Translations under genes and position numbers: made by a program | Notes under the pieces: model-generated | Told to the model about the DNA's origin: nothing | The model's database searches: none | Seen by the model: only the letters and a program-made list of their open reading frames with translations | From: Antedon mediterranea | Taxonomy: Eukaryota > Echinodermata > Crinoidea > Comatulida > Antedonidae | Assembly (NCBI RefSeq): GCF_964355755.1 | Contig: NC_092671.1 | Coordinates: 38,643,304-38,707,303 of the forward strand | Reading direction: 5' to 3' | Length of the DNA stretch: 64,000 bases | Part shown: one piece after another, positions 10,328 to 55,500 of the stretch | How the letters are laid out: the number at the start of each line of letters is the position of its first letter | Numbering within the stretch: position 1 is the first letter of the stretch

Positions 10328-13300
10328 CTAAGCAGTATAATATTTAGATATATAATGATTCTTTAACTTTTTTCGGAAAGTAAATAATGATATTGACGTT
10401 TTGATATTTGGTGGGATATGATTCCACAAATTAGGACCTGATATAGTTATAAAAAATTTAGTTTTTGTAAGTCTAGCAAAAGGAATGTTTAAATGAGAAG
10501 TTCTTAAATTGTAATTGTGAAATTTGGTACGTTTACAGAGCATATCAATCATAGAAATAGGAAGTTGGTTTTTAAAATAATTAAACATAAAACTGGCAAC
10601 TTGAACATTGTGGATATCCGTTAATTTTAATATACCAAGACGTTTAAAAAGGGGTTCAGATGAGGTTCTATATGGTGAAAAAGTAATAATTCTAGCTGCA
10701 CGTTTTTGTAATTTAGTTAATCTAGCAATATTAGAAGAGTAATCTGCAGCCCAAATAATGTTACAATACTGGAAATAAGGAAGTACAAGTGTGTTATAAA
10801 GAGAAATTAAAATATTTAGAGGGAAGAAGTGCTTAAGTCTGTTAATAATACTAATAGATCTTGATATTTTTTTCGAAACGTAATTTTGATGACTGGTCCA
10901 TTTGAGGTTTTCATGAATATATACACCTAAAAAAAGTGTTTCAGTTTTGCGTTCAATTTGAATTCCGCCAAGAAGTATATTTAGGTCATCAACTTTTAGT
11001 TTACGTTGAGAATTGTGAAAAATTAAATAATTTGTTTTAAGAGTATTAATAAGTAATTTGTTTGAAATAAACCAGTCACAAAATTTTGTTAATTCATCAT
11101 TGAATGTAGTAAATAATAAATCAATATTGGAATTAGAGTAAAATAAGGTGGTGTCGTCGGCGAAGGATATTACTTGCAATTTGTTACTGACATTAGCCAG
11201 ATCATTAACATAAATAAGGAAGAGCAATGGCCCAAGCACAGATCCCTGTGGCACTCCGCAAGTAATATCCATCGTCGACGATGTACAAGATCCTAATGCA
11301 ACATATTGTTTTCTATCTTTCAAATAACTATTAAACCAATTCAATGAAATACCTCTAATTCCATAGCACTCAAGTTTTTTAATTAAATTATCGTGATTAA
11401 TAACATCGAAGGCCTTTGAAAGATCAATAAATAAACTTAATAAATTTTCTTTTGATTCAAATGAATTTGTAATATTATTAATAAGATCTAAAACGGCATG
11501 GGATGTAGAGTGATTTTTTCGAAAACCATATTGGCGTTTATTAAGTATATCAAATTTTGTGAGATAATCAGAAAGTTTAGAATACATGAGTTTTTCAATA
11601 ATTTTGGAAAACACTGAAAGTAGTGATATTGGCCGGTAATTAGATAATTGACTTCGTTCACCTTTCTTGAAAATGGGCACAACTTTAGCTAGTTTTAAGT
11701 GTGTTGGAAAAGTGCCAGATAAAAAAGATGAATTTATACAATGGGTAAGTTGGTGGATGATTAAGGGAGATATAGATTTTAAGACACGAGCAGTAATACC
11801 GTCAGATCCAGACCCTTTATTAGAATTTAGATTGTATATAGTTAGGTTAACATCATCAATTGAAACTGGGCTAATATAAAATGAGTTGGCAAACGCAGAA
11901 TGAAGATAAGATAATGGATCAGTTATATTAGTTGGCATACTATTAATAAGATTAGGACCAATTGTAGAAAAATAGTTGTTAAACGATTCACATATCTCTT
12001 TTTGAGTTTTGTAAATATTATCACCGTCTTTAATTAGATTCGGGTGCTTGTTATTATTATTACCTTTATTTAAAACAGAATTTATTACAAGCCATGTGTT
12101 CTTCAGATTACCTTTATATCTATCAAACTGGGAAGTATAATAATTCTTTTTAGCAGTGCGACAAAGATTAGTGAAAATATTATTATATTTTGTATAGTTT
12201 AATTTGTCATTATTACTACGTGTGTGCATATATTTGTTATAAAGTTTATGTTTCCGAGAACTACATTTTAAGAGAGCAGATGACATCCATGGTTGTTTAA
12301 ACGTTTTATTTGATTTTATACTACTTTTAACCAAGTGTCTGGAGTGGATATTTGTAAATTTTTCAATAAATATATCAAAACTCAATCTTGGGTCACAATC
12401 AAATATCATAGACCAGTCTTCACCTTCTAAATCAATCGATAAGGCATTTAGGTCGTTTATACGAAATGAATAGTTGGCGCTATTATCATCAAGGTTTTGA
12501 TCATTAATTTCTTGATCAATGAACTGAAATATAGGAAGGTGGTCGGAGATATCATTAAGTAAAACACCAGCAACTATTTTATAGTTAGATTGTTTGGAAT
12601 AAAAATGATCAATCAAGGTGGCCGAAGTTGAGGTAATCCTAGTTGGTTTTGAAATAGTTGGAAAAAAAGAATGGGAAATTAAGGTATTTAGGTAGGTGTT
12701 TGTTAATTTATGGTTATGGAATTTTAATAAATCAATATTGAAGTCTCCCATGAGATGACAATTTTTGTTTTCATTGTTAATTTGGGTTAATACATTATCG
12801 ACGGATTTAGTAAAAGAATCTAGCCCTCCACAGGGGGCTCTGTAAATAATGCCTATAATATCATTTTTTGTCTTTGAATTTTCAATCTCAACAAAAAGTG
12901 ATTCGGAAAAGTCGTCTGGTAATTTTAAGTCATTTCGAATTGTAATGCTAATATCATTACGTATAAAAAATGCAACTCCTCCGCCAATTTGATTATTGCT
13001 TCTATTGCTTGCAAAGAAGGAGTAGTTATTAATGAAAGGAATAGGGGAGTTTTCATTAAGCCATGTTTCACTGATACCGATTATGGAAAATTTGTTATTA
13101 ATTGAATTCAAAAGGCATTCGAGATCATTAACTTTATGCGTAATACTTCTAATATTAAGATGCAGGAGAGATAGTTTAGTATTAAAGGATGTATTAAACT
13201 TAGAATTAAATTGTGAATAATCATAAAAGCTGCATTCATCTAGGGTAACTGACTGTGAATTGAGATTATTAATTAGTTGATCAAAAGATTCATCATATTT

Positions 13301-13426
13301 GTCATTTTCATTGTAATTAACTGGATTAAAGGTTATGTTAGAAATATCATTGTTGTTAGTAAGTTCAGAGTTCACATTAAAGTCATAAAAAGGAAGTAAG
13401 TGAAGATAATTAACATTCATTAACAA
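10328..13426 (-). CDS. LINE ORF2: endonuclease plus reverse transcriptase
   Basis: This 1,032-residue ORF encodes the enzyme for target-primed reverse transcription. An exonuclease-endonuclease-phosphatase domain begins near residue 87 (HLNIRS), with ISETWL near 117, GDFNIDL near 225 and SDHLPIF near 292 carrying the usual metal-binding and catalytic D, N and H residues. The reverse transcriptase follows, with YRPISLL, FIDLSKAFD (motif A, near 666), GVPQGSVLGPL (near 723) and FADD (catalytic motif C, residues 755-758). The arrangement matches CR1/Jockey-group LINEs. No RNase H domain is seen. The frame is unbroken and the catalytic motifs are intact. The start ATG is the first in the frame; initiation could be by reinitiation after ORF1, whose stop lies about 185 bases upstream. 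Confidence 0.95.
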   Translation of the reverse strand: MLMNVNYLHLLPFYDFNVNSELTNNNDISNITFNPVNYNENDKYDESFDQLINNLNSQSVTLDECSFYDYSQFNSKFNTSFNTKLSLLHLNIRSITHKVNDLECLLNSINNKFSIIGISETWLNENSPIPFINNYSFFASNRSNNQIGGGVAFFIRNDISITIRNDLKLPDDFSESLFVEIENSKTKNDIIGIIYRAPCGGLDSFTKSVDNVLTQINNENKNCHLMGDFNIDLLKFHNHKLTNTYLNTLISHSFFPTISKPTRITSTSATLIDHFYSKQSNYKIVAGVLLNDISDHLPIFQFIDQEINDQNLDDNSANYSFRINDLNALSIDLEGEDWSMIFDCDPRLSFDIFIEKFTNIHSRHLVKSSIKSNKTFKQPWMSSALLKCSSRKHKLYNKYMHTRSNNDKLNYTKYNNIFTNLCRTAKKNYYTSQFDRYKGNLKNTWLVINSVLNKGNNNNKHPNLIKDGDNIYKTQKEICESFNNYFSTIGPNLINSMPTNITDPLSYLHSAFANSFYISPVSIDDVNLTIYNLNSNKGSGSDGITARVLKSISPLIIHQLTHCINSSFLSGTFPTHLKLAKVVPIFKKGERSQLSNYRPISLLSVFSKIIEKLMYSKLSDYLTKFDILNKRQYGFRKNHSTSHAVLDLINNITNSFESKENLLSLFIDLSKAFDVINHDNLIKKLECYGIRGISLNWFNSYLKDRKQYVALGSCTSSTMDITCGVPQGSVLGPLLFLIYVNDLANVSNKLQVISFADDTTLFYSNSNIDLLFTTFNDELTKFCDWFISNKLLINTLKTNYLIFHNSQRKLKVDDLNILLGGIQIERKTETLFLGVYIHENLKWTSHQNYVSKKISRSISIINRLKHFFPLNILISLYNTLVLPYFQYCNIIWAADYSSNIARLTKLQKRAARIITFSPYRTSSEPLFKRLGILKLTDIHNVQVASFMFNYFKNQLPISMIDMLCKRTKFHNYNLRTSHLNIPFARLTKTKFFITISGPNLWNHIPPNIKTSISLFTFRKKLKNHYISKYYTA

Positions 13427-13610
13427 TAGCTGCGTATAGCGTTATCTAAAAAAGAAATACAGCAATAAGCATGCATGAGACTGTATACATTAATACATAA
13501 TTAATGAGAAGCAAAATAAACAATTCTTGAAATAAAAATATATTATAGGTAATATTTCGGTTGACGGTAAGTAGAGTCAAAGTAAAGTTAAATTATTGCG
13601 ACGACTAGAA

Positions 13611-14459
13611 TTACTCAGTAGCTACGGGGGCATGTGCTTCCTTGAGGTTCGGGTAGTATTTGGCAAGATGATCCATGTCGATGAATGTGCGAACATAACC
13701 ATTTGCATCTATGTAACGCAATTTGTCAAGGTGGAGCCAGGCCTTTACTTTGTTGGAATGCAGGTATTTCATCGATGAGTATAATGCCTTTCTTCTACTT
13801 ATCACTCTGCTGGTAAAATCATTATTTACGTAGATGTTATTATCTTTAAATTTAGGTCTCACTTTTGGAGCTGCCTTGCGTACTCTTTCTTTGGTGGAAT
13901 ATCTGAGAAAGTATGCAACAAGTGGTCTCGGTTTATCCCTGGTGGTATTACGTGGTCCAACTCGATGGGCTCGTTGTATATCATCATTAGCGATTTTGAT
14001 GCCGGTGGTATTGGAAATAAATGAGGAAAGGAAATTAACAGTACCTTCACTATCCTCCGCTTGTTCGGGTATGCCAGTAAACCTCAGATTGTTACGGCGT
14101 TGACGTCCTTCTAGGTTGTCGATTTTGTCGCGTATCTCTTCTATGCATTCCGTAGTGGATTGCTGCGTATCCTCGGCAATATCCTTCAGCTTAACATCCA
14201 TGAAATCAGAATTTTCCTGCATATCGGCGTGCAAATTCCTCAGTTCTTTTTGTAAACCGGTGATTTCAAGATTGAGGATGGTAATGTCTTTTTCCAAGGA
14301 GACAATCTTGGTGACTGCGTCGCATAATGTAGATTTAATATCAGCAATGGTTTTGCAGCCCATGATTGACTTGATGAGAGTCGACAGCCAGGTGTTCGGT
14401 TCAGCGGCGCTAATATTTAAATTAGAAATATTTGGCTCTTTGTTTTCCACGTTGGCCAT
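13611..14459 (-). CDS. LINE ORF1: coiled-coil RNA-binding protein
   Basis: This 282-residue ORF lies upstream of ORF2 in the same element. Residues about 45-118 have heptad-like leucine and isoleucine spacing, as in a trimerising coiled coil. A segment starting RRNNLRFTGIPE (residues 121-132) opens an RNA-recognition-like domain like that of L1 ORF1p (Transposase_22 family), and the basic C-terminal part (KAAPKVRPKFKDNN and on) fits the single-strand nucleic-acid-binding C-terminal domain. By analogy it coats the LINE RNA as a nucleic-acid chaperone. It is slightly shorter than mammalian L1 ORF1p. L1-type ORF1 paired with a CR1-type ORF2 is known in several invertebrate lineages. Confidence 0.88.
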   Translation of the reverse strand: MANVENKEPNISNLNISAAEPNTWLSTLIKSIMGCKTIADIKSTLCDAVTKIVSLEKDITILNLEITGLQKELRNLHADMQENSDFMDVKLKDIAEDTQQSTTECIEEIRDKIDNLEGRQRRNNLRFTGIPEQAEDSEGTVNFLSSFISNTTGIKIANDDIQRAHRVGPRNTTRDKPRPLVAYFLRYSTKERVRKAAPKVRPKFKDNNIYVNNDFTSRVISRRKALYSSMKYLHSNKVKAWLHLDKLRYIDANGYVRTFIDMDHLAKYYPNLKEAHAPVATE

Positions 14460-14602
14460 TGTAGATGTTTAGTTAGAATAAATAACAAAAGTGTACCTAT
14501 ATTTAATGCAACCGATACGTTCACTATCCAGGTAGGTATACAGGTCTCATGCAGTTAGTAGCTTATCCTTGCAACATGCTATCACAGGTAAGCGAGTACT
14601 GT

Positions 14603-15375
14603 GTTATATTGGTACGTTATCAAGACGTAAAAATGTTACGTTAATGAATAACATATAAACTACGTTATTATAATACGTTTTTATAACTTTATTATTACAT
14701 CTTAAATTAACGTTAGTTTATAGTTTGTATTTTACGTTCGTATAACGTATTTCTGAACGTTTGTCTAGAACGTTGTATAAATGTTATATTGATACGTTAT
14801 CAAGACGTAAAAATGTTACGTTAATGAATAACATATAAACTACGTTATTATAATACGTTTTTATAACATTATTATTACATCTTAAATTAACGTTAGTTTA
14901 TAGTTTGTATTTTACGTTCGTATAACGTATTTCTGAACGTTTCTCTTGAACGTTGTTTAAATGTTATATTGGTACGTTATCAAGACGTAAAAATGTTACG
15001 TTAATGAATAACATAAAAACTACGTTATTATAATACGTTTTTATAACATTATTATTACATCTTAAGTTAACGTTATTTTATAGTTTGTATTTTACGTTTT
15101 TATAACGTATTTTTCAAACGTTAGGTCTGAACGTAATATAATTGTCACATGTAAACGTTATTAAAACGTGAATATGTTACGTTACTATACAACAATAATC
15201 AAACGTTTCTCAATTACGTAAATAAAACGTTGTGAAAACGTTTTTGTAATAACGTAATTTTATTCACATTATGTAACGTTTTAATGACGTTGTGACAATG
15301 TACTTTTGTAACGTTATTATCGAAAACCAAACTATAACGTTCGCGAATGTTGTCATAACGTTATGTGTTTGCTGG
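14603..15375. repeat. 180 bp satellite array, right part
   Basis: Three regular monomers (word TGTTACGTTAATGAATAAC near 14,631, 14,811 and 14,991) continue the array interrupted by the LINE. From about 15,110 the monomers decay into AACGTT-rich non-periodic sequence that stops at GTTTGCTGGGT near 15,375. That abrupt end may be the terminus of a larger repeat or transposon that carries the array. Confidence 0.9.
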
Positions 15376-15921: not shown

Positions 15922-17708
15922 AGACCAGAAGGGTTTGATTCACAATGGAGGTGTTTCAAACTTCTAATGTTCAACCATTTTGTCATTCAAGCACCCCTCA
16001 TTTTTGCTATTCATATATACACCATGGTGTTTGACATCGGATACGATTACCAGTCAATGCCAACATGGTATAGTTATTATATAATTTTTCTATTTTTTAT
16101 TTTTATTTTTTCCAATCAGCATATAAAATAGTTAAATACTTTATTATGCCGCATGTGCATGTAAAATAAACAATTAAATAAAGAGTTATGATCCTTCAAA
16201 ACTGCTTTAAAAGATATATGTCCCACAATAAAATCAAAATCATTTCACTTATATAAAGACAAAAGGAACGGTTAAAAAAACGTTCTCTGACAGATAATTT
16301 AAATATTTTTTGTCTTAAATTACATTTTATTCAGGCATTTATTTTTTTTTCTCTAGTTTTTGGTCAAAGTGAATAACTATTAGGTGACATTAAAATGGCA
16401 TATTAAAAAAAAATTGTAAAAAAAAAAATTTTTAGGGGGACAATATATCTTTAAGTGTTATTGTTTTTAAATAATTTCTCTCAAACGTCAGAATAACTTT
16501 CGTGGAACTTTTGCCTCAAGCATTCTTATGTATAGTTTAACAATCAATAGACGAAAGTTCTTTTATTATGCTTTATGAGGGACGGAACAAAATTATTTCA
16601 ACTTCCGTTCGGCCTATAATTAATTCTCTTTTTAGGTACTCTCTGCTTCTCCAGTTGTATGCATGTCTGATCCTGGAAGATACTTGGCATTACTTCTTAC
16701 ATCGTGCGCTCCATCACAAATCCGTTTACAAACACGTACACAAAGTTCATCACAATTTCCAGGTAAGTTTTATGATTCAAAGACTAATTTCAACAAAAGA
16801 AAGAGGCTATCATTGGGCTAACGCAGTAGGTCTACAGTTGATACGTGACTGAAAACTTTGTCCGTAACACAATGAAGATATACCATTACACCAATTAATG
16901 TTTTCTGTAATTGTTTATTTTGTAGGCTCCGTTTGGAATGGTTGCTGAATATGCCCATCCTGTTGAGACTGTAGGTAGGTATTGAAATCAGAGCAGCGTG
17001 AGGGAAAGACATTTAAGTCATGTCTTTTTTATTCTCAGCATCATGTATTATGGGGATTTGTTTGATATTTATATTATTATTATGTATAGTTTTTTATTTG
17101 TTTTATAAATTTTAACTTGTACTCTATACAAACAATTAATGTGTTTCTCTCTGTAAATTTTAAGCTGGGACTCCTGGCTTGTGAGGCCTAGAGCTTCATT
17201 GTCTTTGTAGTAGACCCAGACGTTTTTTGTCGAAATAAAAGAGAGAGAAAGAGGTATGTGTCCCCGTTGTGCCTTGTGAATGAATTGATATAAGAAATTT
17301 GATATTTTTTCCCTTTAAAGTTCTTGGATTTGGCTTTTTCATCGGACCGCTACTGTTCTGTACTCATCTCATCTTACTCTGGACGTGGGTCGGAGTTCGT
17401 CTATTGGAAACCATCGACGTTCACAGTGGCTATAACTTTAAATGGAACCCTCTTCATTTGTTGCCATTTTATGGAGGTACTTCAAAATATAAAAAAAATG
17501 TTCATTTTTTTTCAGCCAACGAATTGTTATCTACTGTATTTAACCATGATTTGTTTGTTGTCCAATAGGAGCCGAGTATCATGATTTCCATCACATGAAT
17601 TTCCATGGTAACTACGCACCGACGTTTACCTGGTGGGACAGGATTTGTGGTACGCATGTGCCGTACCAGGAGCACAAGAAGAACAAATTAGCCAATAAAC
17701 AGAATTAG
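15922..17708 (+). CDS. Methylsterol monooxygenase 1-like (C4-methyl sterol oxidase), 3' exons
   Basis: Five exons join in frame: 15,922-16,067, 16,636-16,762, 16,926-16,974, 17,321-17,476 and 17,569-17,708 (stop TAG), each with AG/GT borders. They encode 205 residues that align with roughly residue 87 to the end of human MSMO1. The family is an ER-membrane diiron enzyme that oxidises the 4-alpha-methyl group of sterols with O2, NAD(P)H and cytochrome b5. The histidine boxes are intact: HYFLH in exon 2, HKVHH in exon 2 and HDFHH in exon 5. Hydrophobic stretches lie in exons 1 and 4. The ~85 N-terminal residues are not visible. Upstream lie MITEs, satellite and the LINE, so the first exons are either far upstream or lost. 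The ATG at 15,944 is out of frame. A likely poly(A) signal is at 17,760. Confidence 0.93.
16340..16456. mobile_element. Family-2 MITE, partial, in MSMO1 intron 1
   Basis: It contains GGTCAAAGTGAATAACTA, then TAAAATGGCATATT and a terminal GGGGGACAATATATCTTTAA. The same words occur in reverse at 57,801 and, in part, at 19,166, 36,663 and 60,990. Confidence 0.75.
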
Positions 17709-27651: not shown

Positions 27652-30600
27652 CTAAACTTTCTCAACATAGTTTGAGGGCAGCATTCCTGTTCGACCTGTA
27701 CTCTCGACCGTTCCCGTCATCCATCCATCGTCTATGATCTCGGGGTTGATGATGAAATCGCCCTCGGAAAATGATACTTCATCATGGTCTGCAGCAGCGT
27801 AGTCGTAAAGCGCAACGTACCTCGTACTTCCCTGCAAAAATAACAAAATGTGGAGAAAAAAGTTGTAGCCTATAAATAGTGTTGTAAATGGTTGATGAGA
27901 TTGCAAATGGTTAATACGGCTTTACCACGTTGAAACACCGGTTCTCGTCAGATCACCAAAGTTAAGCAACGTTGAGCCTGGTTAGAGCTTGGATGGGAGA
28001 CCATCTGGGAATACCGGGTGCTGTATATGGAGCTGGGGTTCCATTAGGCATTTGAAATCAGCACTGCTGACTCTTATAGCAGCCCCTGGATCTAGTATCT
28101 GCCTCAGACGTATTGGCTTATGCCTTTCCTCTGGTCAAGGTGGGCTCTTGATCAATGTTAGGACCAATCAAGGTGCTTTAAATAGTCCTGGCTTTGTTTG
28201 TATCAAACCTGTTAGTGGCGGTAATTATCGCTGTTGGTTTCGATTGAATAAAATAAAAAAAAAAAAAATTTCACAAAAAGTTTTTCTCACTTTACAAACA
28301 TGGTTTATTATCTGTATAAAATTGAGTTATACCCATGAGGTTTGTTCACGCTCAATTATTTATTTATAGTGAGTGGCCGAGCGGTTAAGAAAGTGGAACC
28401 ATAATTACGTAGATAAAATTGACAAGGGTTCAAGTCTCACTCGCTCCTAGTTCTGGTGGTAGAACGAGTCTTCTCGGATAGGGACTAAAAACCGTAGGTC
28501 CAGTGTACACATCTGGCTTATGTGCACTTTAAAGAACCTAGTACATCTTTTGAGATTAGTAGGGGGTTACGCCGGTGTACTATTACATCACAGCCACTGA
28601 TCATAATTGGGCCCTCTGGGAGACCAGTCTTTGACTGAAGAGGTTACCCAGTATAAATAAATAATTAACTAACTCTACCCCTAGGATTTGGCTTCGCTGG
28701 TGGGTAGGTCACCTACAGGCCCATTGAGGGATGCCCATTGAGGGAGGGAAATGTTGGCAGATTGTATTCTTACCTGTACAGGAGCATGACCTCCAGCCTG
28801 TGGATATACTACTGCAGGTTGGTGTGCTATAAACAGAATATATAACAATCCTTTTAAAAAAAATACAAATTCAATTCGATCTAAAAATTGGATTAACAAA
28901 AGAATTACACAAAATAAATTTGTTAAAATGTGATTTTCTATCTTTAATATGTGTTAGTTAATTAAATTAGACTTAAAATTAATTGAACAAATATTTTGTT
29001 ATTTTAATTAAATCAAAATACTGTGTTCAATAAAAAAAATTAAATATATTTTAGTTAATACATCAGACAAACGAAACTATTAATAGGACGACAACAAAAT
29101 GGGACATGCTTTTTAAAAAAAAATCAAATCATTCCACATTAAAGAATATCTTGGAACACTCCATAAAGTCAACCATTCGAGAAGCTAACCATTCCAACAT
29201 TATCAATACAGCCTGTATTGGCAGAGTCTAGAGAGCAACCATTCCACATTCTCAATACAGCCTGTATTGGCAGAGTCTAGACAGCAACCATTCCACATTC
29301 TCAATACAGCCTGTATTGCCAGAGTCTAGACAGCAACCATTCCACATTCTCAATACAGCCTGTATTGGCAGAGTCTAGACAGCAACCATTCCACATTCTC
29401 AATACAGCCTGTATCAGCAGAGTCTATAGACCAACCATATCATTTTTTCAACAAATCTAATTTTGGACATAGTTATTGCAATTCAAAACACATACCGGTA
29501 CACAAAAAAAACTAAATTGATATTCACCCATGCTTTTATTTAAAAAATTAGTTGAAATATCAAATTTGATAATAAAGTAAATATTATTTACAAAAGATAC
29601 CACTGGGATAAAACATAATAGAACAATGAATTATTTTAATGAAAAAAAATAAAACAGAAATTAATAATGTATCTACAGAAAAAATAATATGTATTATGTA
29701 AACATCAAAAGAAAACCAATAAAATTATTAAACTATTTCTTATTATTATAATACCTACGGATGGTGTATACATTCAACTAACATAATAAACAGATTTAAT
29801 AGAACAAGTATGTCAACAAACAAGTATGTAAACAAACAAGTATGTCAACAAACAAGTATGTCAACAAACAAGTATGTCAACAAACAAGTATGTTAACAAA
29901 CAAGTATGTCAACAAAGAAATAAACATGTATGTAAACAAACAAACATGTATGTAAACAAACAAGTATGTAAACAAACAAACAAACAAACATGTTTGTAAA
30001 CAAACAAACATGCATGCAAACAAACAAGTATGTAAACAAACAAACAAACATGTATGTAAACAAACAATTATGTAAACAAAGAAACAAACATGTATGTAAA
30101 CAAACAAGTATGTAAACAAACAAACAAACATGTATGTAAACAAACAAACAAACATGTTTGTAAACAAACAAACAAACATGTATGTCAACAAACAAGTATG
30201 TAAACAAACAAACATGTATGTAAACAAACAAGCATGTTAACAAACAAACATGTTTGTAAACAAACAAACACGTATGTAAACAAACAAGTATGTTAACAAA
30301 CAAACAAACATGTATGTAAACAAACATGTATGTAAACAAACAGGTATGTTAACAAACAAACAAACATGTATGTAAACAAACAAACATGTATGTATGTAAA
30401 CAAACAAACAAACATGTATGTAAACAAACATGTATGTAAACAAACAAACAAACAAACATGTATGTCAACAAACAAGTATGTAAACAAACAAACATGTATG
30501 TAAAGAAACAAACATGTATGTTAACAAACAAACATGTATGTAAACAAACAAGTATGTTAACAAAGAAACAAACATGTTTGTAAACAAACAAACACGTATG

Positions 30601-33600
30601 TAAACAAACATGTATGTTAACAAACAAACAAACAAACATGTTTGTAAACAAACAAACAAACATGTTTGTAAACAAACAAACATGTTTGTAAACAAACAAA
30701 CATGTTTGTAAACAAACAAACATGTTTGTAAACAAACAAACAAAACAAACAAACATGTTTGTAAACAAACATGTTTGTAAACAAACAAACATGTATGTAA
30801 ACAAACATGTATGTTAACATACAAACAAACAAACATGTATGTAAACATACAAACAAACATGTATGTAAACAAACAAGTATGTTAACATACAAACAAACAT
30901 GTATGTAAACAAACAAACATGTATGTAAACATACAAACAAACATGTATGTAAACAAACAAACATGTATGTTAACATAAAAACATGTTTTTAATGATATGA
31001 TTTCTATAATGAATGTAATGTAATGTTATTAAACAATATTTCTCATAAATTTCTCAAACAATAACACTACAGTACTAAGACAATGTTATACACTACAGTA
31101 CTAAGACAATGTTATACACTACAGTACTAAGACAATGTTATACATTCTTTTTTCTGTCAACCACTTTAAATATTTTCCCCCAAAAAATTAAAAAATAAGC
31201 AACAATTCATTCACACCTAGCCCCACTTTGACTGTCAAAAATCAATCTATTCAGAATTGTTATGGGGGTTAAATGAAGGAGTTTAAAGGTTGTAGTATCA
31301 TAATTCATAAATATTACTTGTGTGAGTGAGATATAGAGGTTGCCAAATCTGGGTCAATAGGGCAAATACTGACCAAGATATAAATACATAAACACTTAAA
31401 AATAAGCTACCTTAAATAGCTAACTATAATCTAAATGACCTATATTAGTTTTAAGGACAAATAATTTACAAACTCTCAAACATAACAATACTCAATTTTA
31501 AATTCCACACTCTATTATACAATTATATTTACAGTATGTTATTTAGTATTTATTACAACAACATGAAATTAATTTGATTAAAACATTATTTATCAAGTTA
31601 ATATAAACATACTGTACTAGTAGTCTGGTAGCGTATTAAAAGAAAGTTTAAAACCAATATTAATATTGTTTCGACGACTTACATACTAAAACACGCTTAT
31701 AATTAAATTCTGACAAAGTCCACTACATAGCTGTTGGAGATAGTAGTCTTAGGGAAGAGTGGTTGCCATTCATTTCAATATCAATTCATGCAATTGTCAT
31801 GAAAATGATCACTCCATGCCGACATTGCAATCTATATCTTTATCACCGATACAAACACATAGCTTTTGATATAGGAAATTTAAAATTTGATATCTTAATC
31901 TCCATTAAATACTTTATTTTTGGTCAATAATATTAGCAATGATAATATCATAAGCTTTTATCATCTGGCGAGTGGTACCCAGCTTGCTTCTGGTGGTGCA
32001 CATAGCATACACTAAGTATTGAACTGGTTTCACTAAAATAGACACATGCATATCATTTTTTAAATAGGGCAACTGAAAGGTTTCTTTAAAATTTAAAACT
32101 CCAAATGCATTTGAATACCCACAAACCCTTTCTGTGTTTATTTTTATCATGTGATCAAAAGCCATGTGATGCTGAAATGGATGTTTTGGCTAAAATCTAT
32201 TCTAAATAGGTTATGAATATTCATCAGGTCATTCTAGCAACTGGCTCTTCAATCCTTTACACTTACCCCATTCATTGCCAATTGCTAGGTGCCAAGAAAA
32301 CAATCAAGATTAAAAAAAAAAACCAAAGAAAACATAAATGCTTTAATGCTACCCAAAATAAACTTGTTGACAATATTGAAACAAATTTTGAATAAAATAA
32401 GAGTTATACTTCATATCCCATTTCATTTTAATATTTAAAAAACTGTAATAAAATTATATAAAAATACACAAAATATTAATTGTTAAAAAAAATTAAACAA
32501 TAATGTAAATGAATGATTTGTACGGTAAATGATATATATATTTTAGAATTTGAATTTTTAAAAAAGGAATTCAAAATTAAAATGTTTTCTGACTAACCTT
32601 CTTGGAGGTCTCGCATTGGATTATACTCAGCTGGTTCAGCAGGATTTGTATCAGTGCGAGATTCAACAGAAATAACAGGTGTCGGTTCATCAGAAATCAC
32701 AGGTGTTGGTTCATCAGAAATCACAGTTGTTGGTTCATCAGAAATCACAGTTGTTGGTTCATCAGAAATCACAGGTGTTGGTTCATCAGAAATCACAGTT
32801 GTTGATTCATCAGAAATCACAGGTGTTGGTTCATCAGAAATCACAGTTGTTGGTTCATCAGAAATCACAGTTGTTGGTTCATCAGAAATCACAGTTGTTG
32901 GTTCATCAGAGATCACAGGTGTTGGTTCATCAGAAATCACAGGTGTTGGTTCATCAGAAATCACAGGTGTTTGTTCGACAGAAATCACAGGTGTTGGTTC
33001 ATCAGAAATCACAGGTGTTGGTTCATCAGAAATCACAGGTGTTGGTTCATCAGAAATCACAGGCGTGGGTGTAATAGTAGAGGAATCAGGTTGTTCGAGA
33101 GGTAGAGTTTTAAGATGAACTGTTATGAAAGATAAAACAATGAATAAATAATACACAACATATTTCCAACAGCCATCTCAATAATGAAATAGTAGTAGGG
33201 AGATTAATACAAAATTTAAAAGATATAATATTGGGAGAAAATGAGCCGGTCTACTAATACTAATCTCTTCACTAGAATTTCCCATTGTTATTCTGGTAAA
33301 ATAAACATGAATTTGGACATTGAGCAAATTCTTAGTAGAGTATTTGATATCTACAATTTGGCCAGTATCACAACACTCACCTATGATGCTGGTACACAGG
33401 AAGAAATATGATGAAACTGTTAGTGTTCATGCACTATGCACACAAATCAGTTTTTAGGAAGGTTATCATTGAAAAATCAGACACAGTGTATCAGAAGTGT
33501 TACAGAGGCCAGATTAGGTTTCTAATAAAAAATGTACAATTTGTGACATTATGAAAGTCATAAATGTCAAATGAAGGAACCTCCAGCAAAGATGCACAAA

Positions 33601-36600: not shown

Positions 36601-39600
36601 TTTAATTCTATTATTTATCCAACACCACCTAGTGTTGTTATAATATATTGTGTTCAAACTCACAGTAAAAATGTATTTACCTGAGAAAAATGTAATTTAA
36701 AGAAAAAAATGGTCAAATTGTCTGGAAGACAATGAGTTTTTGGGTAATTTAACTGTTAATTTGTCTTTTTAGAGGTGAAATAATTTTTTTCCCACGTTTT
36801 TTTTTCTTATGAAGGTGAACAACTTCATTAAAACTGCAAAATGGCCTATTCAAAGTCCGATTTTAAAAATCCCCAATGATTTTGGGGGACAATACATCTT
36901 TAATATATAAATTTAGTATATAATCAGTGATATAATGTTAGTACAATATTATATAATAGTATAGCAAAATCCACACAAGTTTGCAACTAGTACAGAAACC
37001 ATTAGTAATAGTTGGAGAAACAAAGAGGAAGGGAGGGAAGGAGAGTCAGAGTCAAAGGTGAAACATGCTATACTCCACAAACATAGGATTTAATACACTC
37101 ATGCTCAGATTAATAATTATATATAAACAAGTACATTTATTCATCAATTATTTTTAACAAATTTCTTACCATAATTTGAAACCGGAACAGATGGACAAAG
37201 AAATAAAATGAAAATAATGAATAATATTGTTAGAACAGCACATATAAATTTAAATTATGTTCAAACAAAATGACAACAAAAATTAATTAATATTTTCTTT
37301 ATTATTTTTTTATATTTAAATGCAGGTGTCCCTACAATTTAGGATATAACAAATTACAACAGATTGTTATATAAATTGATTAATACAGATGACTAAATTT
37401 TACAAAAAAAAAAAATTACTATTTCATCATTATACTAAATAAAGATAAATATCTCTTTTAAAAGATGGCATACTAAAAAGTGAAAATAATAATTTAAATT
37501 TGTAGGTAATAAATGATATAATAAATCTAAATTAGCTTTCTTTTCTCTCACTAAAGATCATCTTGCAATTTCAAAGCGTTTTATTGAATTTCATTACAGC
37601 CTAATAATGTCATTCATCACTTACTTGGAGGTCAACTACCTTATATGGCAATGATACTGGCAAACACAGTACTGAGCTGTGATTGGCTGAGCTGCAAGGG
37701 GTGTGTTTTCCATCATAACTTGGATTTAGAGATGACAAGTATTGACACTACTGTGATACACTTAATAATCTATCCACTAATACTTAATTAAATACGTTAT
37801 TGCCTCTAGCATAATATCATACTGTATCAAGTTCAATATAAATTATTGTTTAACCTATATTATTATTAACAAATAATACACAGGAGCTATTCATTACCTT
37901 TGTTAATTTTAATAACGTCTAATAGTTAAACATAAAATTTAAAAAAAAATATATTAAAATTTAATTGTTTACAAAAAAAGAATAATAGTAATAACAATGC
38001 TATACTGTACTTATAATAAAAATGATTAATTTTAATAACTTAATTTGGTGTCTTAATTGACGCCAGGTTAGGATCTGTCCCATCAATGGATCAGGCATTG
38101 ATTATCTAAAACAATTTAGTAACATCCACTTTATTCAAATACAAATTAATTTCTTTTCTTTTTTTCTTCTTATATAAAATAAATTATAAAAAATAACAAT
38201 ACTTACAATATTGTAATATTAATAATAATTATAGGGAAGTTTTTTTCCTTGTTTAAATAGCATTGAATGAACAAAAAAAATTAAAAGGTATAAATTTAGA
38301 GTAATAAATAATTTTGTTAACTATCAAGAACATTTGAGCTTAATAATTTATAGGACTATAATAAATAACAAAAAATGTATGTTTACCTTTTTGTTGGTTT
38401 TTCGGCTTCTCTTGAGGCCTGTGAGCATTTTCAATCTCCCTCGTTTCAGCATGACCATGGTAAACCAAGTTACTCTGTATCTTTGTATTTTTCATAGCTT
38501 TGTCTGTTAATGGGTCACTTTCCACTGATATCTTTTTACCCTTTTGTTCCTCCAAATCTTTGTGATATTGAACCTGTTAATAATCAAAATGATTACCTCA
38601 GTTACTGTAATAAATGTAGTTCAATTATTGGGAATTATATGTTTGTGTATTGTGAATTAGTAACACAAATATAATCAAATCAAATCAAATTAATTTTTCA
38701 AGTAAATGAATTCATTGTTCAAGTAATTCTAATTAAGAACCAACGATACAGTTTTTTTTTTATAATTTAATTTTTAATCATAGTTTAAAGATAAATGTCT
38801 TTAGAGAGGGGTGGACTTACAAGATCAAACCTCTAAAACATAGAATTGAGAATTGGGTAGTTTTTTATTGGAGGGGAGAAGTTGTTATTGATTTTTACCG
38901 AATGGCAAGAACATTTTCTCACCTCTCATTCTATAGTTCTTTTTAAAATAAAAGTTTAAAGCTCTGTCCACACTATCAAACTTTACGTGACAAAAAAATG
39001 TGATGTGCCCAAATATGGTAGTGATTTGACGTCATAGAGTTGAAATATGGGCACATCACATTCTGTCATGAAGTTTGATAGTGTAGACAGAGCTAAAGGA
39101 TAAATTTCTTATTATAGGCTGATTGAATTCATTGAATGGTTTCACTTACAACTTTATAAATCAGAGATGATCTTTAATTGTAAATAAAGACAATTAAACT
39201 CACATTACTGATTGTTTTAGTATTTGCTTTCACTCTTCTGTTTTCTGGAGTATCAGCTACTTGAGTGAACTTAGTGGTTGGATAATGACTGTGAAATAAA
39301 ACAATTGATTGGCAATAGGACAAAGTTCAATCTTTGAACTGATGTGTTTAAATTAAGTGTATTTTACTTTATTCTACAAAATAGAAATTTCATAATCAAA
39401 TAGTCTTAAGCTCTGTCTGCACTATCAAACTAGTTTGACAAAAAAGGTGTTGGCACAAATATGGTAGTGATGTGCCCAAATATGGTAGAGTGATATGACA
39501 TCATCATGTCCATGGGCACATCACATTTGTTGTCACATAAAGTTTGATAGTGTAGACTGAGCTTTACAATTAAGTTTCAAGAAATTGATACATTAAAATT

Positions 39601-42600
39601 AGTATTAGTATTTTTTATATTAACAAAAGCATTCTTATATATTTATTTAATACTGTAAATACAAGTATCATCAACGGATGCTATCAAACATATGCGAAGG
39701 ATTACAATTAGTGATAGGTGCATACATCAACGTCACTAGCTGTCAAATTAATCCATTGAATAACAGTCAACTAGAATTAGAAATGTAGATATATGCATTT
39801 CAAAAACTACTGTGTAATCATTTAAATCTCAAACTTTGCGTATAGTTAGTTAGCACCGTTTATACAGGATTCAAATAATCTTTATTGTAATAAGTAAACA
39901 GAGATTGAATTTTACATGGTATAAAATGAACAGACAAGTTATAAAATTGTATGACAAGGATACATAACATCTCAATACATAATTTATGGGATAAAAACAA
40001 TATAAATTTAAAGCTAAAGGTAGAAAGGGAACCGGTACAAATTTAAGAATAGGTTAAAATTCAAATAAATCAGTATTTTTTACAGCGGATCACAGATACA
40101 TTGGATCTTACACCCAACATACATAGAATTCAAACGGGTAATTTGATCATAATAATTAACGCTATACGAATCCTGATGGATATTAATAGGGCATATCAAA
40201 TACATTTTAATATGCACGTACTTGCCTGAACTTAGTCAAGTGTTAAAAATAAATGGTCCAATTTATTAGTTATTACTGAATGTTTTTTAAAAGAATCAAT
40301 TAAAACTATCTATAATTATATCAAACTTTATGTGACAAAAAAAAATGTGATGTGCCTATATATGGACATGATGATGTCATATCACTACCATATTTTAGCA
40401 TATCACTATCAAATTTGGGCACATAACACTTTTTTGTTGAAATAGTTTTATAGTGTAGACAGAGATTTAGTTTACACTATCAAACTAGTGTGACTATGTC
40501 CTAATATGGTGGTAGTGATATGACATCATCATGTCCATATATGGGCACATCACATTTGTATGTCACATAAAGTTTGATAGTGTAGACAGAGCTGAAATGT
40601 AATAACATACATTAAATGACCTATCCTAGGTCAAGTATACAATCTTTGAATATCTACAACATATAATGATACCTGAATACAGTGAATGAATACATAAAAA
40701 GACTTACGCGTTGCAATATGGCTTTTTGCTATATCCTTTATAATTTTTCATTGTCAGTTTTGTGTTACAAATTTCACAGCTAAAACATCCCTTGTGCCAG
40801 ATCTGAAGAAAGAGAATCACAAAAATGCATTTTATTTTATCTTGTCTCATTTAAATACCGACCAGAGAAACAGATTTTCTGTTTATTTTTTTTGCAATTT
40901 GTTACGCAATTTTAAAAAGAACTTTAAATTGCAAGAAAAGTCTACTGTCAGTGTTTGAGTTTACTGTTATTTTAAAGGCAGAATCCCCGTCGTAAATTCA
41001 CTCTGCACTCCACTGGCTGATAAAAAGTAGACTTCAATTTTTGGAAGTAAAAGTATAGGCCTAGGCCAATAGCGCGCAAGTAGTTGGAGTTAAGAAATCC
41101 TTGCACAATTTATCACAGAGATGCCGAAAACATAAAAAAATAAAGAAAATGGGTCCAACATTCATTTTTAACAATATTATTATTAATTAGGATGAATGAT
41201 TAATTAATTAGGGCCAGTTTTAGTTTATATTTTATAAACTCTGTAGTGTTTTGTGTTCGACTGGTGATTCAAATGAACAATTAATAATTAACTAATCATA
41301 CATAATTGTTTAATAGTCTTATGAAAATATATCATGTATCATCCCCTATATTCATATCATAGCCTTGGTTAATCTTTCCTCATCATCTATCCAGAACAGC
41401 CGCCGCAATTCCTTCATCTACACCGCCCACCTACCTACCAATACCACATCCAACAATCGAGAGGAGGCCTGAATTGAGGAATCCGAGAGATGTCGATCAC
41501 GCTTACGTACCTGATCCAGGCATTTGAGCTGTTCCATCGAGTAAACAATACGAGTGCATCTTGCACATGGTTTACCACTCATAATGATTTTATTTGTATT
41601 GATGAACTTTGAATGTAAAACTCAACAGATAAATAACTAGCGTTATCTTATGAAATTTAGTCCAAACTTGTTTTAATTTTCACACACAACTCGCAACCTC
41701 CGACGGAGATTGACACACGTACACACAACGCATAAAAGATGCAAACAAAAATACCAACTAACTTCACTGAGAGGGCGACAAACTGAACGTAAAATTCACC
41801 AGAAATCTGTTATTAAAATATCAATGCATAGAGATATTATCACTATAATATCTCTATGATCAATGTAAAATTTATATATATATATATTTAAATTAAGGTA
41901 CCGGTACTGTAGTATAATTATATAATAATATAAAGTAGGTTATGTCCTGTTCTGTAAAAATAAAAGACGGCCTGAAAAAAATCTTCTAGGAAAAGACATA
42001 TCGCTATAACTGTTGAAATTATTGTCCATAACAGATAATATGATTAAACACGGGTTTTTTATCGAAAGAAAAAAAAAAAATAAGTTGAGTACATACAGTG
42101 TTGTCGGCAGGCCCTACTAAATAGACGAACTTTAAAATATTCGTCATTAAAGTCTCCCTTAATATACATATTCACGTAGGCCTACAGAGTATGAAAAATA
42201 AAGTGTAAAACAAACCGTAAAATCATGAATTGTGTTTGGAGGCTAATTTTGCATCAATGAAAAAAAAATAGACCTTAATATATGTTCCTACCTATTCTAT
42301 ATATGTTTATTTCTTGTAATTTAGTATTTTTAGGTGTCAGTGGGTTTCCTGCTGCTGTAGTGTTAATTATCAATGGTATTGTAGTTACTGTAGTTGAATT
42401 GTTTTGACATGTTGACCTACGTCGACTTTTTATTGTAATTGTTTTTTTCTATATCATGTTTTTTTTTGGCGTATATTTCTTTTGGATGCACCTTCCATTT
42501 GGTCGAGTGCCACTGTTGTAAAAGTGTAATCTCCAAATAAATTATTATTATTATACAATAAGCATTTGTTTAGCCAGTGGACTAAAACCTAGCATCAAAA

Positions 42601-42859
42601 CCTACACTCACTTTAACGATCGACTCCATACACTCAAATTAAAGAGTTAAGTTAAGAACTAGCAAAGACACGAATATGATTTGCTCAAACGTAATCTTTC
42701 TTCTTTTAACTGTCAGTTGTGAAGATTTCCCAAAAATGTTTCTTTTTTTTTTGGTCAACTTCATAGCACCAAGGCTGACCCACTCACCTTGTCCAAAGCT
42801 CCTAATTTCTCAACAGGATATACCAGCTTCTTACACCGTGCGCAGGGTACGCAACTCAT
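27652..42859 (-). CDS. LASP1: LIM and SH3 domain protein (LASP1/LASP-like)
   Basis: Minus-strand exons: alternative first exons 42,788-42,859 or 41,511-41,582, then 40,708-40,802, 39,204-39,288, 38,387-38,573, optional 32,598-33,119, 28,774-28,826 and 27,652-27,831 (stop TAG). Phases join exactly and give 223 residues without and 397 with the optional exon (human LASP1 261). The N-terminal LIM domain has C-x2-C-x17-H-x2-C split by the first intron and the second finger in [13 protein letters not shown] and KPYCNAH. Two nebulin repeats follow ([29 protein letters not shown]). A linker leads to a C-terminal SH3 ([35 protein letters not shown]). LASP proteins bind F-actin through the nebulin repeats and partners such as zyxin or palladin through SH3, at adhesions and cell edges. 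Additional small linker exons in the long introns cannot be excluded. Confidence 0.95.
27914..28268 (+). mobile_element. 5S rRNA-derived SINE (SINE3-type)
   Basis: The first ~112 bases follow 5S rRNA closely: CACCGGTTCTCGTCAGATCA, AAGTTAAGC, GCCTGGTTAGAGCTTGGATG, then GAATACCGGGTGCTGTA. These include the internal pol III control regions. The 5' end is short by several bases. A ~240 bp unrelated body follows and ends in GAATAAAATAAAAAAAA. This 5S head plus body plus A-rich tail is the SINE3 plan. It lies in the last LASP1 intron, antisense to that gene, 83 bases from the SH3 exon. Confidence 0.88.
28369..28664 (+). mobile_element. tRNA-derived SINE copy 1
   Basis: The head resembles a tRNA of the Ser/Leu type: box A GTGGCCGAGCGGTTAAG and box B GGGTTCAAGTCTC. 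The body contains TAGGTCCAGTGTACA, TGTGCACTTTAAAGAACC and ACATCACAGCCAC, and the tail GTATAAATAAATAA. The copy at 50,045 shares all of these. Confidence 0.9.
29183..29433. repeat. 49 bp minisatellite, five copies
   Basis: CAGAGTCTA recurs every 49 bases (29,222, 29,271, 29,320 and on). Each unit holds AATACAGCCTGTATT, a near-perfect 15 base palindrome. It lies in a LASP1 intron. Confidence 0.92.
29803..30985. repeat. 1.2 kb ACAAACATGTATGTAAACA array
   Basis: Irregular tandem units of about 12-24 bases, built from ACAAACATGTATGTAA, ACAAACATGTTTGTAA and ACAAACAAGTATG words. The ACAAACATGTTTGT form is palindromic. GTAAACAAACA, a forkhead-type site, occurs dozens of times. All three minus-strand frames stay open for long stretches only because the units lack stop words. 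It lies in the LASP1 intron after the optional repeat exon. Confidence 0.95.
31065..31142. repeat. 26 bp tandem repeat, three copies
   Basis: CACTACAGTACTAAGACAAT starts at 31,065, 31,091 and 31,117. Confidence 0.93.
32598..33119 (-). CDS. LASP1: LASP1 cassette exon encoding an 8-residue repeat
   Basis: A 522 bp open stretch has an acceptor (TTTCATAACAG) and donor (GAAG, then GTTAGTC) and is in phase 1 at both ends, matching the exon before (38,387-38,573) and after (28,774-28,826). It can therefore be included or skipped without a frameshift. It encodes about 17 tandem copies of PTPVISDE, with T for the second P or V for D in some copies, flanked by non-repetitive [13 protein letters not shown] and [16 protein letters not shown]. 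The position is the LASP linker between the nebulin repeats and SH3. I know no such repeat in vertebrate LASP1. The segment is acidic, disordered and rich in possible phosphosites. RNA evidence is needed for use of the exon, but splice sites and phase are both right. Confidence 0.78.
32668..33070. repeat. 24 bp coding minisatellite
   Basis: Units of GGTTCATCAGAAATCACAGG plus TGTT repeat at 24 base spacing with very few changes, mostly G to T in the GGTGTT/GTTGTT part. Such homogeneity points to recent expansion and probable length variation. Confidence 0.95.
34068..34213. mobile_element. Family-1 MITE copy (LASP1 intron)
   Basis: Left end AGAGCATTGTCTACACTATC, right end TTGATAGTGTAGACAGAGC, core intact. 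Confidence 0.88.
34427..34855. repeat. ~108 bp tandem repeat, four copies
   Basis: CCAGCTACTCAAGTATATG starts at 34,546, 34,653 and 34,761, with a more diverged first copy at 34,436 (CCAACTGCTAAG). Each unit holds TATGACATGCCATGTGTGCC. Lies in the LASP1 intron. Confidence 0.92.
36003..36194. mobile_element. Family-4 MITE copy
   Basis: Ends TTAAGGCCAATTTACACAG and CTGTGTAAATTTGTCTTTA, internal GAGCGGTAACGG and its complement-like CCATCACCGCTC. Same family as 22,992. Confidence 0.88.
36663..36903. mobile_element. Family-2 element, right two thirds
   Basis: It shares ATGTATTTACCTGAGAAAAA, TGGCCTATTCAAAG and the terminal GGGGGACAATACATCTTTAA with the 19,166 copy; the left end is missing. Confidence 0.75.
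38957..39096. mobile_element. Family-1 MITE copy (LASP1 intron)
   Basis: AAAGCTCTGTCCACACTATC at the left and AGTGTAGACAGAGCTAAAG at the right; single internal module. Confidence 0.9.
39406..39567. mobile_element. Family-1 MITE copy with two internal modules
   Basis: TTAAGCTCTGTCTGCACTATC at the left, GTGTAGACTGAGCTTTA at the right, with GGTAGTGATGTG and GGTAGAGTGATATG as two internal modules. Confidence 0.9.
40318..40470. mobile_element. Family-1 MITE copy, first of a tandem pair
   Basis: The outer left end is eroded, starting at ATCAAACTTTATGTGAC; the right end is TATAGTGTAGACAGAGA. Another copy begins directly after it. Confidence 0.82.
40471..40593. mobile_element. Family-1 MITE copy, second of a tandem pair
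   Basis: Starts at TTTACACTATCAAACTAGTG and ends GATAGTGTAGACAGAGCT. The pair abuts with no spacer, suggesting insertion of one copy at the end of the other. Confidence 0.82.
41511..41582 (-). CDS. LASP1: LASP1 alternative first coding exon (proximal)
   Basis: 72 bases from ATG to a GTACGTAAGC donor, encoding [15 protein letters not shown] and on to CLDQ. It supplies the first two cysteines of the LIM finger and joins phase 0 to the exon at 40,802. It is more diverged from the vertebrate LASP consensus than the distal version: Q in place of the K before the splice, and an extra C. Confidence 0.85.
42300..42556 (+). mobile_element. Possible retroelement 3' tail ending in (ATT)n
   Basis: A T-rich stretch ends GTAATCTCCAAATAAATTAT followed by TATTATTAT, like the 3' end of a non-LTR element. 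There is no coding part and no second copy in the window, so the assignment is weak. Confidence 0.3.
42788..42859 (-). CDS. LASP1: LASP1 alternative first coding exon (distal)
   Basis: Also exactly 72 bases, from ATG to a GTGAGTGGG donor, encoding [20 protein letters not shown] to LDK, phase 0. CARC..VYP.EK..LDK is the classic start of LASP/nebulette LIM domains, so this is the conserved version. The open frame extends upstream of the ATG but that part shows no similarity and is taken as 5' UTR. Confidence 0.88.
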
Positions 42860-52593: not shown

Positions 52594-55500
52594 ATGAAGG
52601 AAGTTTTCCAGGTTGACCCAGTGACTCAGTTGCGGAGATTTGCTTATCTAATATCTCCGAATGAGTCATCTTTTGAAACAGCTGAAGAGGTTCCTGACTA
52701 TCTAGTAGAGGTACTACTTGTTGTCACTATATGTGATTCCAAAAATCTCACAAATTGCAATTATTATGAACTTAACATCATTTTATTTGGTTTTTTAAAG
52801 TTTTAAAATATCATATCATAATATAATATAGTGCACTTTCTATTCTAAGGCCCCATAACAAAATTATTATTATCACCCTATCACCAGCTCAAAACTGATG
52901 AGGGAGGGAGGTGTTTGCTGGTAAGCCTCGGCAATTTAAAACAATAGAAATAGACTTAGTAGTAGTAGCCCCTTTACAAAAACTTTTCTTTTGTCCTGTA
53001 CTTTATCCTTTATGATGATTCTCTCTATTTTGTTGTTATTGTATATTTAAATTTGTTGACCTCTAGGCAGTGCCCTACTTTGTCATTACAATTTTGTTGG
53101 AGGCGATTATTATTGGAATTCGAGACAAAAAATGGCTCCGTATAAACGACGCAATCAGCTCAACTTCAGCAGGACTTCTCATGACAATGATTAAGTAATT
53201 AGTTGTTTATTTTTTTACTTAATAATAATTATGAAAATCTTATGTCATATTTTTTTCTTCTATTTACTTACCTCTGTAGAGGGCCTCTTCTGAAACTGAG
53301 AGCGATGATGATATTTTAAATATATTTAATCAATTATCAATCAATCAATTATTAATAGAGAACTTAATACTATCAAGTAATGAAAAAAGAACTTTTTTAA
53401 ATTTATTTATTTTATTCAATTATCAGGCACAAACAACAACATTTAATACATGACATGCAGAACCCTGGGGATTGCCATGAGTGCTAAGCACTATCTCTCA
53501 CTAGCTCCATACTGCACTTCAAACATATACAAGTAAAACAATAAATATACATAAGATATAACAAATTGAAAAATTGTGTAGTGTCAAAGTTGAAAAATCA
53601 TTAACAAATATATATATGTGTACTAATACTTAAATGACATTTTATTTTGTATGTTTTAGGGGTCTTTTCAGAGGGTTAGAAGTGTTTGCTTACAGTTGGG
53701 TTTATGAGAATTGCCGGATTGTAGAACTACCTTGGAACAGCGCTTGGACCTGGTTTCTTTGTATGGTAACGTTTGATTGTGGCTATTACTGGTTTCATCG
53801 TGCTGCTCATGGTAAGTCGCATTTTTGGATTGTGCAATCTATCATCTCTCTTTGTTGGAGAGACACGCCCTTGTTGGAGAAACACACCCTTGTTGGAGAG
53901 ACATGCCCTTGTTGGAGAGACACGCCTTTTTGGTGATAGTTGTCATTGACAGCTCTTGTCTCTCCTCAGTGCTCTCTTTTTATGTTTCACTGAAAGGAAC
54001 AAATAAAAAAATTTATAGAAATATTTTTTTGCCTGACTTTCCTAACCATGGAGGTATATAATATACATCCGTGGTCCTAATCAATAACTCTTTCAGGTAG
54101 ATAATATGTTGTCCATGTAAGAAATAGTTTATAATATCTGCTGAAATCATTTAATGACAATCAATTACAACTTGTATTTGTTTTCTGATAGAGGTAAATA
54201 TCTTATGGTCAGCTCATCAAGTGCACCATAGCTCAGAAGAGTACAACCTATCTACCGCCCTCAGGCAGTCCATATATCAACACTATACGTCATGGGTAAG
54301 ATTGGATGTTTTTGTACTTCTCAACTCTTTTGCTTTCTTGAATTTATGTCAACACTATCAAACATTATGTGACAAAAAAAATGTGATGTGCCCATATATG
54401 GACATGATGATGTCATATCACTACCATATTTTGGCATATCACTACCATATTTGGGCACATCACACTTTTTGTAGTTTGATAGAGACAGAGCTTTACACAG
54501 TCAAGTTCACTTTTAATTGACTTATATGCCTAAATTAAATTGAATGCAGCATTGAATCCTGTAAATCAGAATAATTACCTTATTAAAGAAATTTTCCTTT
54601 GCTTTTTCGATAATTTACCTTTTAAGTACGATATGGAAATTGTTATTTCCAGGTTTTCTACCTCCCCATGGCACTTGCGATTCCTTTACCTGTTATGCTT
54701 GTACACGGCCAGTTCAATCTACTTTACCAATTCTGGATTCACACTGAGGTATGTTTTCTTCATTAATGTCTTTTTTACCTTAGGCCATGTAAAGTATCAT
54801 TAACTTCGAGACCCAACAGTGTCTCCACTAACCAAAACAAATGTTAATACAGTAGGTTCGAGTGTCAAAAAGCCAATGAAATATACCAAAATGAATAATG
54901 AAATTGAACAATATCAACTTTGATTGGTGTACACTGACTGGATGGAGTAACAGTTGCAAATCAACATGAAAACTTACATTTTTTAAAATTTTTTTATTTT
55001 TTGTGCTTTATTTATTTTAATTTCATTTTTATTGTTACATGTTTATGTCTCGTCATATTGTATTTTTGTGGGGCTCCCCTTTGTTGAAAATAAAAAATAA
55101 TAAATAAAAACACAGAAAACAAAAAAGTATATTTTGATTATTACTAAAATAACCATAAATGGAATATAATTATTTTGATTCTTTTTTGTGATTTGTAGAT
55201 AGTGACATCTCTTGGACCTCTTGAGTACATTCTTAACACACCAAGTCATCACAGAGTACATCATGGTAAGTTAAGTCAAGTTTAAATGTTTATTCTTAAA
55301 CATATTGCTGATACAACAGCATATTTTAATCTATAAATTCTTCATCTTGTGTTTTTTTCCTTTCCCCTCTGGTTATACACGTTAATAGTGTTGTCTCTTG
55401 AATAGAGCATATTTTGTTCTCAATCATTTCACAGAAAAGTTTTCCCTTAATAAAGTGGAGTTGTGGCTTGGTGGTTATGATAGTTGGCTACCAATCCAAG

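Follow-up and report, generated by a model that had tools for sequence, protein, structure and literature searches.

Can a tandem repeat that lies between the coding exons of a conserved cytoskeletal gene be part of the protein itself? Coding minisatellites are common in animals, and the crinoid Antedon mediterranea raises the question in a particularly direct form. On the minus strand of a 64,000-nucleotide stretch of its genome (NC_092671.1, positions 38,643,304 to 38,707,303; hereafter the window), a gene of the LASP family has a 24-bp minisatellite in open frame between its nebulin-repeat and SH3 exons, which a sequence-only reading had proposed to be a cassette exon. Here, we combine splice-site and frame analysis, tandem-repeat statistics, domain and genome searches, and comparison with a second LASP gene of the same genome. 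Taken together, the sequence features suggest that 33119-32598 is probably a genuine coding exon of this gene, located in the linker that joins the nebulin repeats to the SH3 domain. We refer to it as exon 5.

A LASP-family gene and its predicted linker exon

The host gene is a member of the LASP family, of which this genome has two genes or more. Human LASP1, used as a tblastn query, recovers every conserved exon, all on the minus strand (Table 1), and as LIM, Nebulin and SH3 models all score, the gene is of LASP type by every domain tested. LIM (PF00412) is above the Pfam cut-off with either of two first exons, Nebulin (PF00880) reaches 42.9 bits against a cut-off of 20.1, with one repeat above the cut-off and a second, in exon 4, degenerate, and SH3 is likewise above its cut-off, with LASP1 (3i35), then nebulette (4f14) and nebulin (1ark), as the nearest solved structures. 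The order of LIM, nebulin repeat and SH3 is that of vertebrate LASP-1 and LASP-2 and of invertebrate LASP. Compared with human LASP1, the SH3 domain is 68% identical over 59 residues and the whole protein without exon 5 is 53% identical. In contrast to the single nebulin repeat above the Pfam cut-off in the window gene, LASP-1 has two and LASP-2 three (PMC2359764, PMC3305314). The window gene may be LASP1 itself or a co-orthologue of vertebrate LASP1 and LASP2.

Table 1. Predicted exons of the window LASP gene and the parts of exon 5
Feature	Coordinates	Strand	Properties and basis
Exon 1a, alternative first coding exon, first half of LIM	42788..42859	minus	tblastn with LASP1; donor AAG/gtgagt; Pfam LIM when joined to exon 2
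Exon 1b, alternative first coding exon, first half of LIM	41511..41582	minus	tblastn; donor CAG/gtacgt; Pfam LIM
Exon 2, second half of LIM	40708..40802	minus	tblastn, 56% to LASP1; splice sites
Exon 3, start of nebulin repeat, 28 residues	39204..39288	minus	tblastn, sequence; Pfam Nebulin match extends over exons 3-4
Exon 4, remainder of nebulin repeat 1 and a second, degenerate repeat; phase 1 at its end	38387..38573	minus	tblastn, sequence, Pfam Nebulin
Predicted linker exon 5	32598..33119	minus	174 codons (522 nt), phase 1/1; splice signals, open frame and phase as seen in the sequence itself
Unique 5' part of exon 5	33071..33119	minus	16 residues + (T), first codon split with exon 4; open in the exon frame, G+C 37%
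Coding minisatellite of exon 5, 17 units of 24 bp in register with the codons, P-T-(P/T)-V-I-S-D-E	32662..33069	minus	TRF and unit alignment
Unique 3' part of exon 5	32598..32661	minus	21 residues, then G/gttagt; open, G+C 47%
Exon 6, short linker exon, 17 residues, phase 1 to 0	28774..28826	minus	sequence, splice sites
Exon 7, SH3 domain and stop	27652..27831	minus	tblastn, 68% to LASP1; Pfam SH3; best solved relative LASP1 SH3 (3i35)

The two first exons (MSCVPCARC... for 1a and MSGKPCARC... for 1b) each encode the first zinc-binding half of the LIM domain, have good donors and join exon 2 in phase 0; this arrangement suggests two promoters that would give different LIM halves. Exon 1a is the nearer of the two to the first exon of the second LASP gene.

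Read on the minus strand, exon 5 begins directly after ttatctttcataacag, with ...tttcataacag/TTCATC as its 5' border and CAAGAAG/gttagt as its 3' border. The length is a multiple of three, and one frame runs from end to end without a stop. Exon 4 closes with AAA G/gtaaac at 38387 and exon 6 opens with tag/CACACC at 28826, so that with phase 1 on both sides the frame is kept by inclusion and by skipping of exon 5 alike. The joined exons encode 397 residues with exon 5 and 223 without it (398 and 224 codons when the stop is included). The sequence-only reading had claimed an exact fit of splice sites and phase 1/1 to the flanking exons, and this is borne out by the AG/GT borders, the uninterrupted 522 nt and the phase 1 of both neighbouring introns. 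Its further claim that inclusion adds 174 residues, mostly some 17 copies of PTPVISDE, agrees equally well with the codon count, the 17.0 copies given by TRF and units that mostly read PTPVISDE or PTTVISDE.

Could exon 5 instead end the transcript? An in-frame stop follows immediately on the split codon at its end (GGT TAG), and if the donor were left unused the product would be a LASP protein with a repeat tail and without SH3. We regard such an alternative terminal exon as very improbable: the donor AAG/gttagt is good, the nearest same-strand AATAAA lies about 450 nt downstream (32142), and the density of this hexamer is no higher there than in the upstream intron.

The array against its genomic background

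By TRF, the array (32662-33070) comprises 17.0 copies of the 24-bp unit, with 94% matches and 0% indels, so the units are near-identical and, in the one haplotype available, present a VNTR-like tandem structure. The consensus unit encodes PTPVISDE; five units read PTTVISDE (CCT to ACT), two end in ISVE, and QTPVISDE and STTVISDE occur once each. Pairwise divergence among the units of this haplotype averages 6.8%. Identical neighbouring units are no commoner than in shuffles (p 0.33; 17 units, one haplotype), which gives no signature of local expansion. Roughly ten independent changes can be counted among the units, about five synonymous and about five replacement, compared with an expected synonymous share of 27-30% (p about 0.10-0.15), and protein-level selection within the array is possible on these counts.

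The open frame of the array is itself cheap evidence, since copying a 24-bp unit that has no in-frame stop adds no stop, whatever the copy number. This bears on the principal objection to a coding role, namely that the array is a noncoding intronic minisatellite which is open by accident, with nearby splice-like sites completing the illusion. Several observations speak for it. Minisatellites are frequent in this genome (134 TRF rows in 229.5 kb), both unique flanks of exon 5 would be open by chance in about 10% of draws from these introns, which is only mildly improbable, the synonymous excess among the units does not reach significance, and one antisense frame is also open over the full array and bounded by splice-like sites. 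However, there are no indels over 17 units, and a period of 3n together with an open frame is found in just one further array of at least 200 bp across the window and 165.5 kb sampled outside it. Phase, strand, position in the linker and G+C are all concordant as well, with 41% G+C in exon 5 vs 27% and 30% in the flanking introns (33% for the genome, from a 165-kb sample). On balance, we consider the noncoding reading unlikely.

The antisense frame raises a related alternative, in which the array belongs to an opposite-strand gene nested in the LASP intron. On the plus strand, 32643-33101 is an AG..GT-bounded, in-phase open interval of 459 nt, with 4.0 bits for the acceptor and 1.3 bits for the donor. 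Nonetheless, a reading of the list of open frames yields no plus-strand gene around the array, and minus-strand LASP exons stand on both sides of it; we find a nested gene barely credible.

How well does exon 5 stand out within its own introns? Among 188 phase-1/1 open AG..GT intervals on the gene strand of the 9.6 kb of flanking intron, it has the top splice score (3.5, with 3.4 for the runner-up), scores that are approximate for this echinoderm gene, as the weight matrix is an informal one of vertebrate type. Only exon 5 and one variant of it exceed 366 nt in this set, and the only other intervals to reach 300 nt are a few weak ones at 36.0-36.4 kb. In score, the acceptor of exon 5 about equals the exon 6 acceptor, and its donor exceeds the exon 4 donor.

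In searches of the 354-Mb genome, the array and its two flanks each have a single occurrence; the assembly consists of 11 large contigs (C1-C11, 41.4 to 22.3 Mb) and small ones (C12-C14, 0.57-0.08 Mb). Being single-copy, exon 5 is not a dispersed repeat or transposon, and an origin from a transposon or a dispersed satellite is thereby ruled out. A paralogous copy of exon 5 elsewhere in the genome is ruled out too, the other protein matches being weak and confined to the repeat part. The non-trivial part of the case for a coding exon is the agreement of several sequence features, namely phase, strand, G+C, linker position, splice score and single copy.

A second LASP gene and the use of exon 5

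The genome contains a paralogous LASP gene at C6:1058640-1068782 (G000), which allows the linker to be compared within one species. The two genes share their domains, a phase-1 intron at the corresponding position before the linker (the nebulin exon of the paralogue ends TCA A/gtaagc) and a tandem coding repeat within the linker. In the paralogue, the repeat encodes NPPPMNAGYQS (33 bp x 2.3 copies, 97%). The genes differ in that the repeat sequences are unrelated, the paralogue has only two to three copies, its linker is one exon rather than two, and it has one short nebulin exon. As NPPPMNAGYQS and PTPVISDE are unrelated, tandem growth in a LASP linker would, on this reading, have happened twice in this genome, and linkers enlarged by repeats seem characteristic of the LASP family here. 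The tail of exon 5 (AEPAEYNP) weakly resembles a stretch of the paralogue linker (AEPAPYQP; shuffle p 0.03 for that stretch alone), a likeness without significance once eight comparisons are allowed for.

The introns of the paralogue bear on the noncoding reading in both directions. They are crowded with noncoding-looking minisatellites with units of 15, 22 and 65 bp, several of them in the intron equivalent to the one that holds exon 5, which indicates that introns of this kind harbour arrays in any case. The large ones mostly contain indels (1-7% by TRF) and lack a frame that is open over the full length, whereas the window array is indel-free and open. Large 15-bp GGACAACTACCCCCC and 22-bp arrays occur on both strands in and around the paralogue introns (L018 2995-5308, L019 1871-4156), where they apparently form an inverted duplication several kilobases long.

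If exon 5 is real, is it always used? The paralogue suggests that it could be an ordinary, constitutive part of the LASP linker in this species, a reading that overlaps with the main explanation. The paralogue linker is a single exon that follows a phase-1 intron, with phase 1 at its 5' end and phase 0 at the junction with SH3, and exons 5 and 6 together hold the equivalent place with the same phases; the splice sites of exon 5 are also about as good as those of exons 4 and 6. Against constitutive use, the symmetric 1/1 phase makes skipping harmless, the acceptor of exon 5 is the lowest-scoring of the gene, though by a bare margin, and other LASP genes have isoforms, such as l-lasp in Drosophila (PMC2761545). 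A real and constitutive exon is a serious possibility to which we give somewhat less than even weight; on the condition that the exon is real, we give constitutive use and skipping about equal odds. Cassette use, as far as the sequence goes, is permitted by the symmetric phase.

The predicted spacer among known LASP linkers

What would a coding exon 5 add to the protein? The predicted segment has 39 D/E residues vs 3 K/R and 18% proline, and its composition falls in the disordered range of a charge-hydropathy plot. It contains 12 TP dipeptides, one S/T-x-x-D/E motif and one PxxP, the latter in the tail. With a single S/T-x-x-D/E in the whole exon, CK2-type phosphorylation at each unit is ruled out on motif. 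A structure search found no solved structure that resembles the repeat, and its similarity to a phage T4 gp5 trimerisation model lies below the cut-off and is taken as a repeat artefact. With exon 5 the linker would lengthen from about 42 to about 216 residues, and its mean end-to-end distance, by polymer scaling, from about 5 to about 14 nm.

A plausible history starts with a short linker exon that gained, or already had, a PTPVISDE-like stretch, which may then have multiplied by slippage or unequal exchange. Such growth would be tolerated in a disordered linker, as changes by whole 24-bp units leave the frame intact. The result would be an acidic, proline-rich disordered spacer between the nebulin region and SH3, long enough to let SH3 contact partners farther from the actin-bound LIM/nebulin part. 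In known LASP proteins, linker and SH3 determine focal-adhesion targeting and LIM and nebulin repeats bind actin (PMC2761545), so that a longer tether is expected to alter the reach of SH3 and not its specificity. Length alleles, a tunable spacer and phosphorylation of the exon 5 product are predictions from the sequence. In its most far-reaching form, the proposal would have regulated inclusion of a length-polymorphic exon 5 vary SH3 reach by tissue and individual, with up to 12 TP sites acting as a phospho-switch and the second LASP gene behaving likewise with another repeat, such that minisatellite growth in the linker would be a recurrent means of tuning the family; this larger scheme we hold to be decidedly doubtful.

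Divergence within the LASP family lies in the linker (PMC2359764), which is also phospho-regulated and involved in targeting (PMC2359764, PMC2761545). Panaviene and Moncman (2007), as cited in PMC2761545, are credited with showing that the linker affects targeting of LASP-1 and LASP-2, and Fernandes and Schock (2014), as cited in PMC4381576, with showing that Lasp sets filament spacing in fly muscle. Compared by description, the LASP of insects (silkworm, Drosophila) resembles the window gene in its long stretch from LIM to SH3, reported to exceed that of vertebrates (PMC4381576), and in Drosophila in having more than one isoform, including l-lasp (PMC2761545). Vertebrate LASPs differ from the window gene in that the latter has a 174-residue repeat segment in its linker.

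Coding copy-number polymorphism has been estimated for about 1 in 20 human proteins (PMC1273636). The window array resembles coding minisatellites and VNTRs in disordered regions in its period divisible by three, its lack of indels and its disordered product, and differs from them in making up most of one symmetric-phase exon and in being known here from one haplotype. A limited literature search found no report of a repeat-built LASP linker exon. The novelty asserted by the sequence-only reading is nevertheless weaker than was stated: the long linkers of insects, the divergence of LASP linkers in general and the paralogue's own repeat-built linker all detract from it. We regard a repeat-built LASP linker exon as a new form of kinds already on record, namely long or divergent LASP linkers and coding tandem repeats. 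If exon 5 is expressed, 174 of 397 residues, nearly half of one isoform of a conserved actin and focal-adhesion adaptor, would be a minisatellite product, and the gene would offer a clean natural experiment on whether the protein is sensitive to the length of the linker from its actin-binding part to SH3.

Finally, the window holds several features apart from the LASP exons. In the last LASP intron, 27912-28029 on the plus strand is 5S rRNA-like (Rfam, 78 bits) and continues for roughly another 220 bp up to an A-rich end; from its sequence this element looks like a 5S-derived SINE, and a genome search for 5S gave 7375 first-look candidates. On the minus strand, 10328-14468 is by eye a non-LTR retroelement with an open reverse-transcriptase frame of 1037 residues and an upstream frame of 285 residues, bracketed by arrays at 8957-9824 and 14602-15184 that share one unit of about 180 bp. 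Frames that by eye resemble alkylglycerol monooxygenase, a histidine-box membrane enzyme, flank the LASP gene on the plus strand (16541-17568 and 53634-55949). Short tandem GTGATATGCCCAAATATGGTA copies occur on either strand at many places, among them 15521, 22192, 45674, 47069 and 54414, as part of a dispersed element with a terminal 'GTCTACACTATCAAACT' motif that is probably a MITE.
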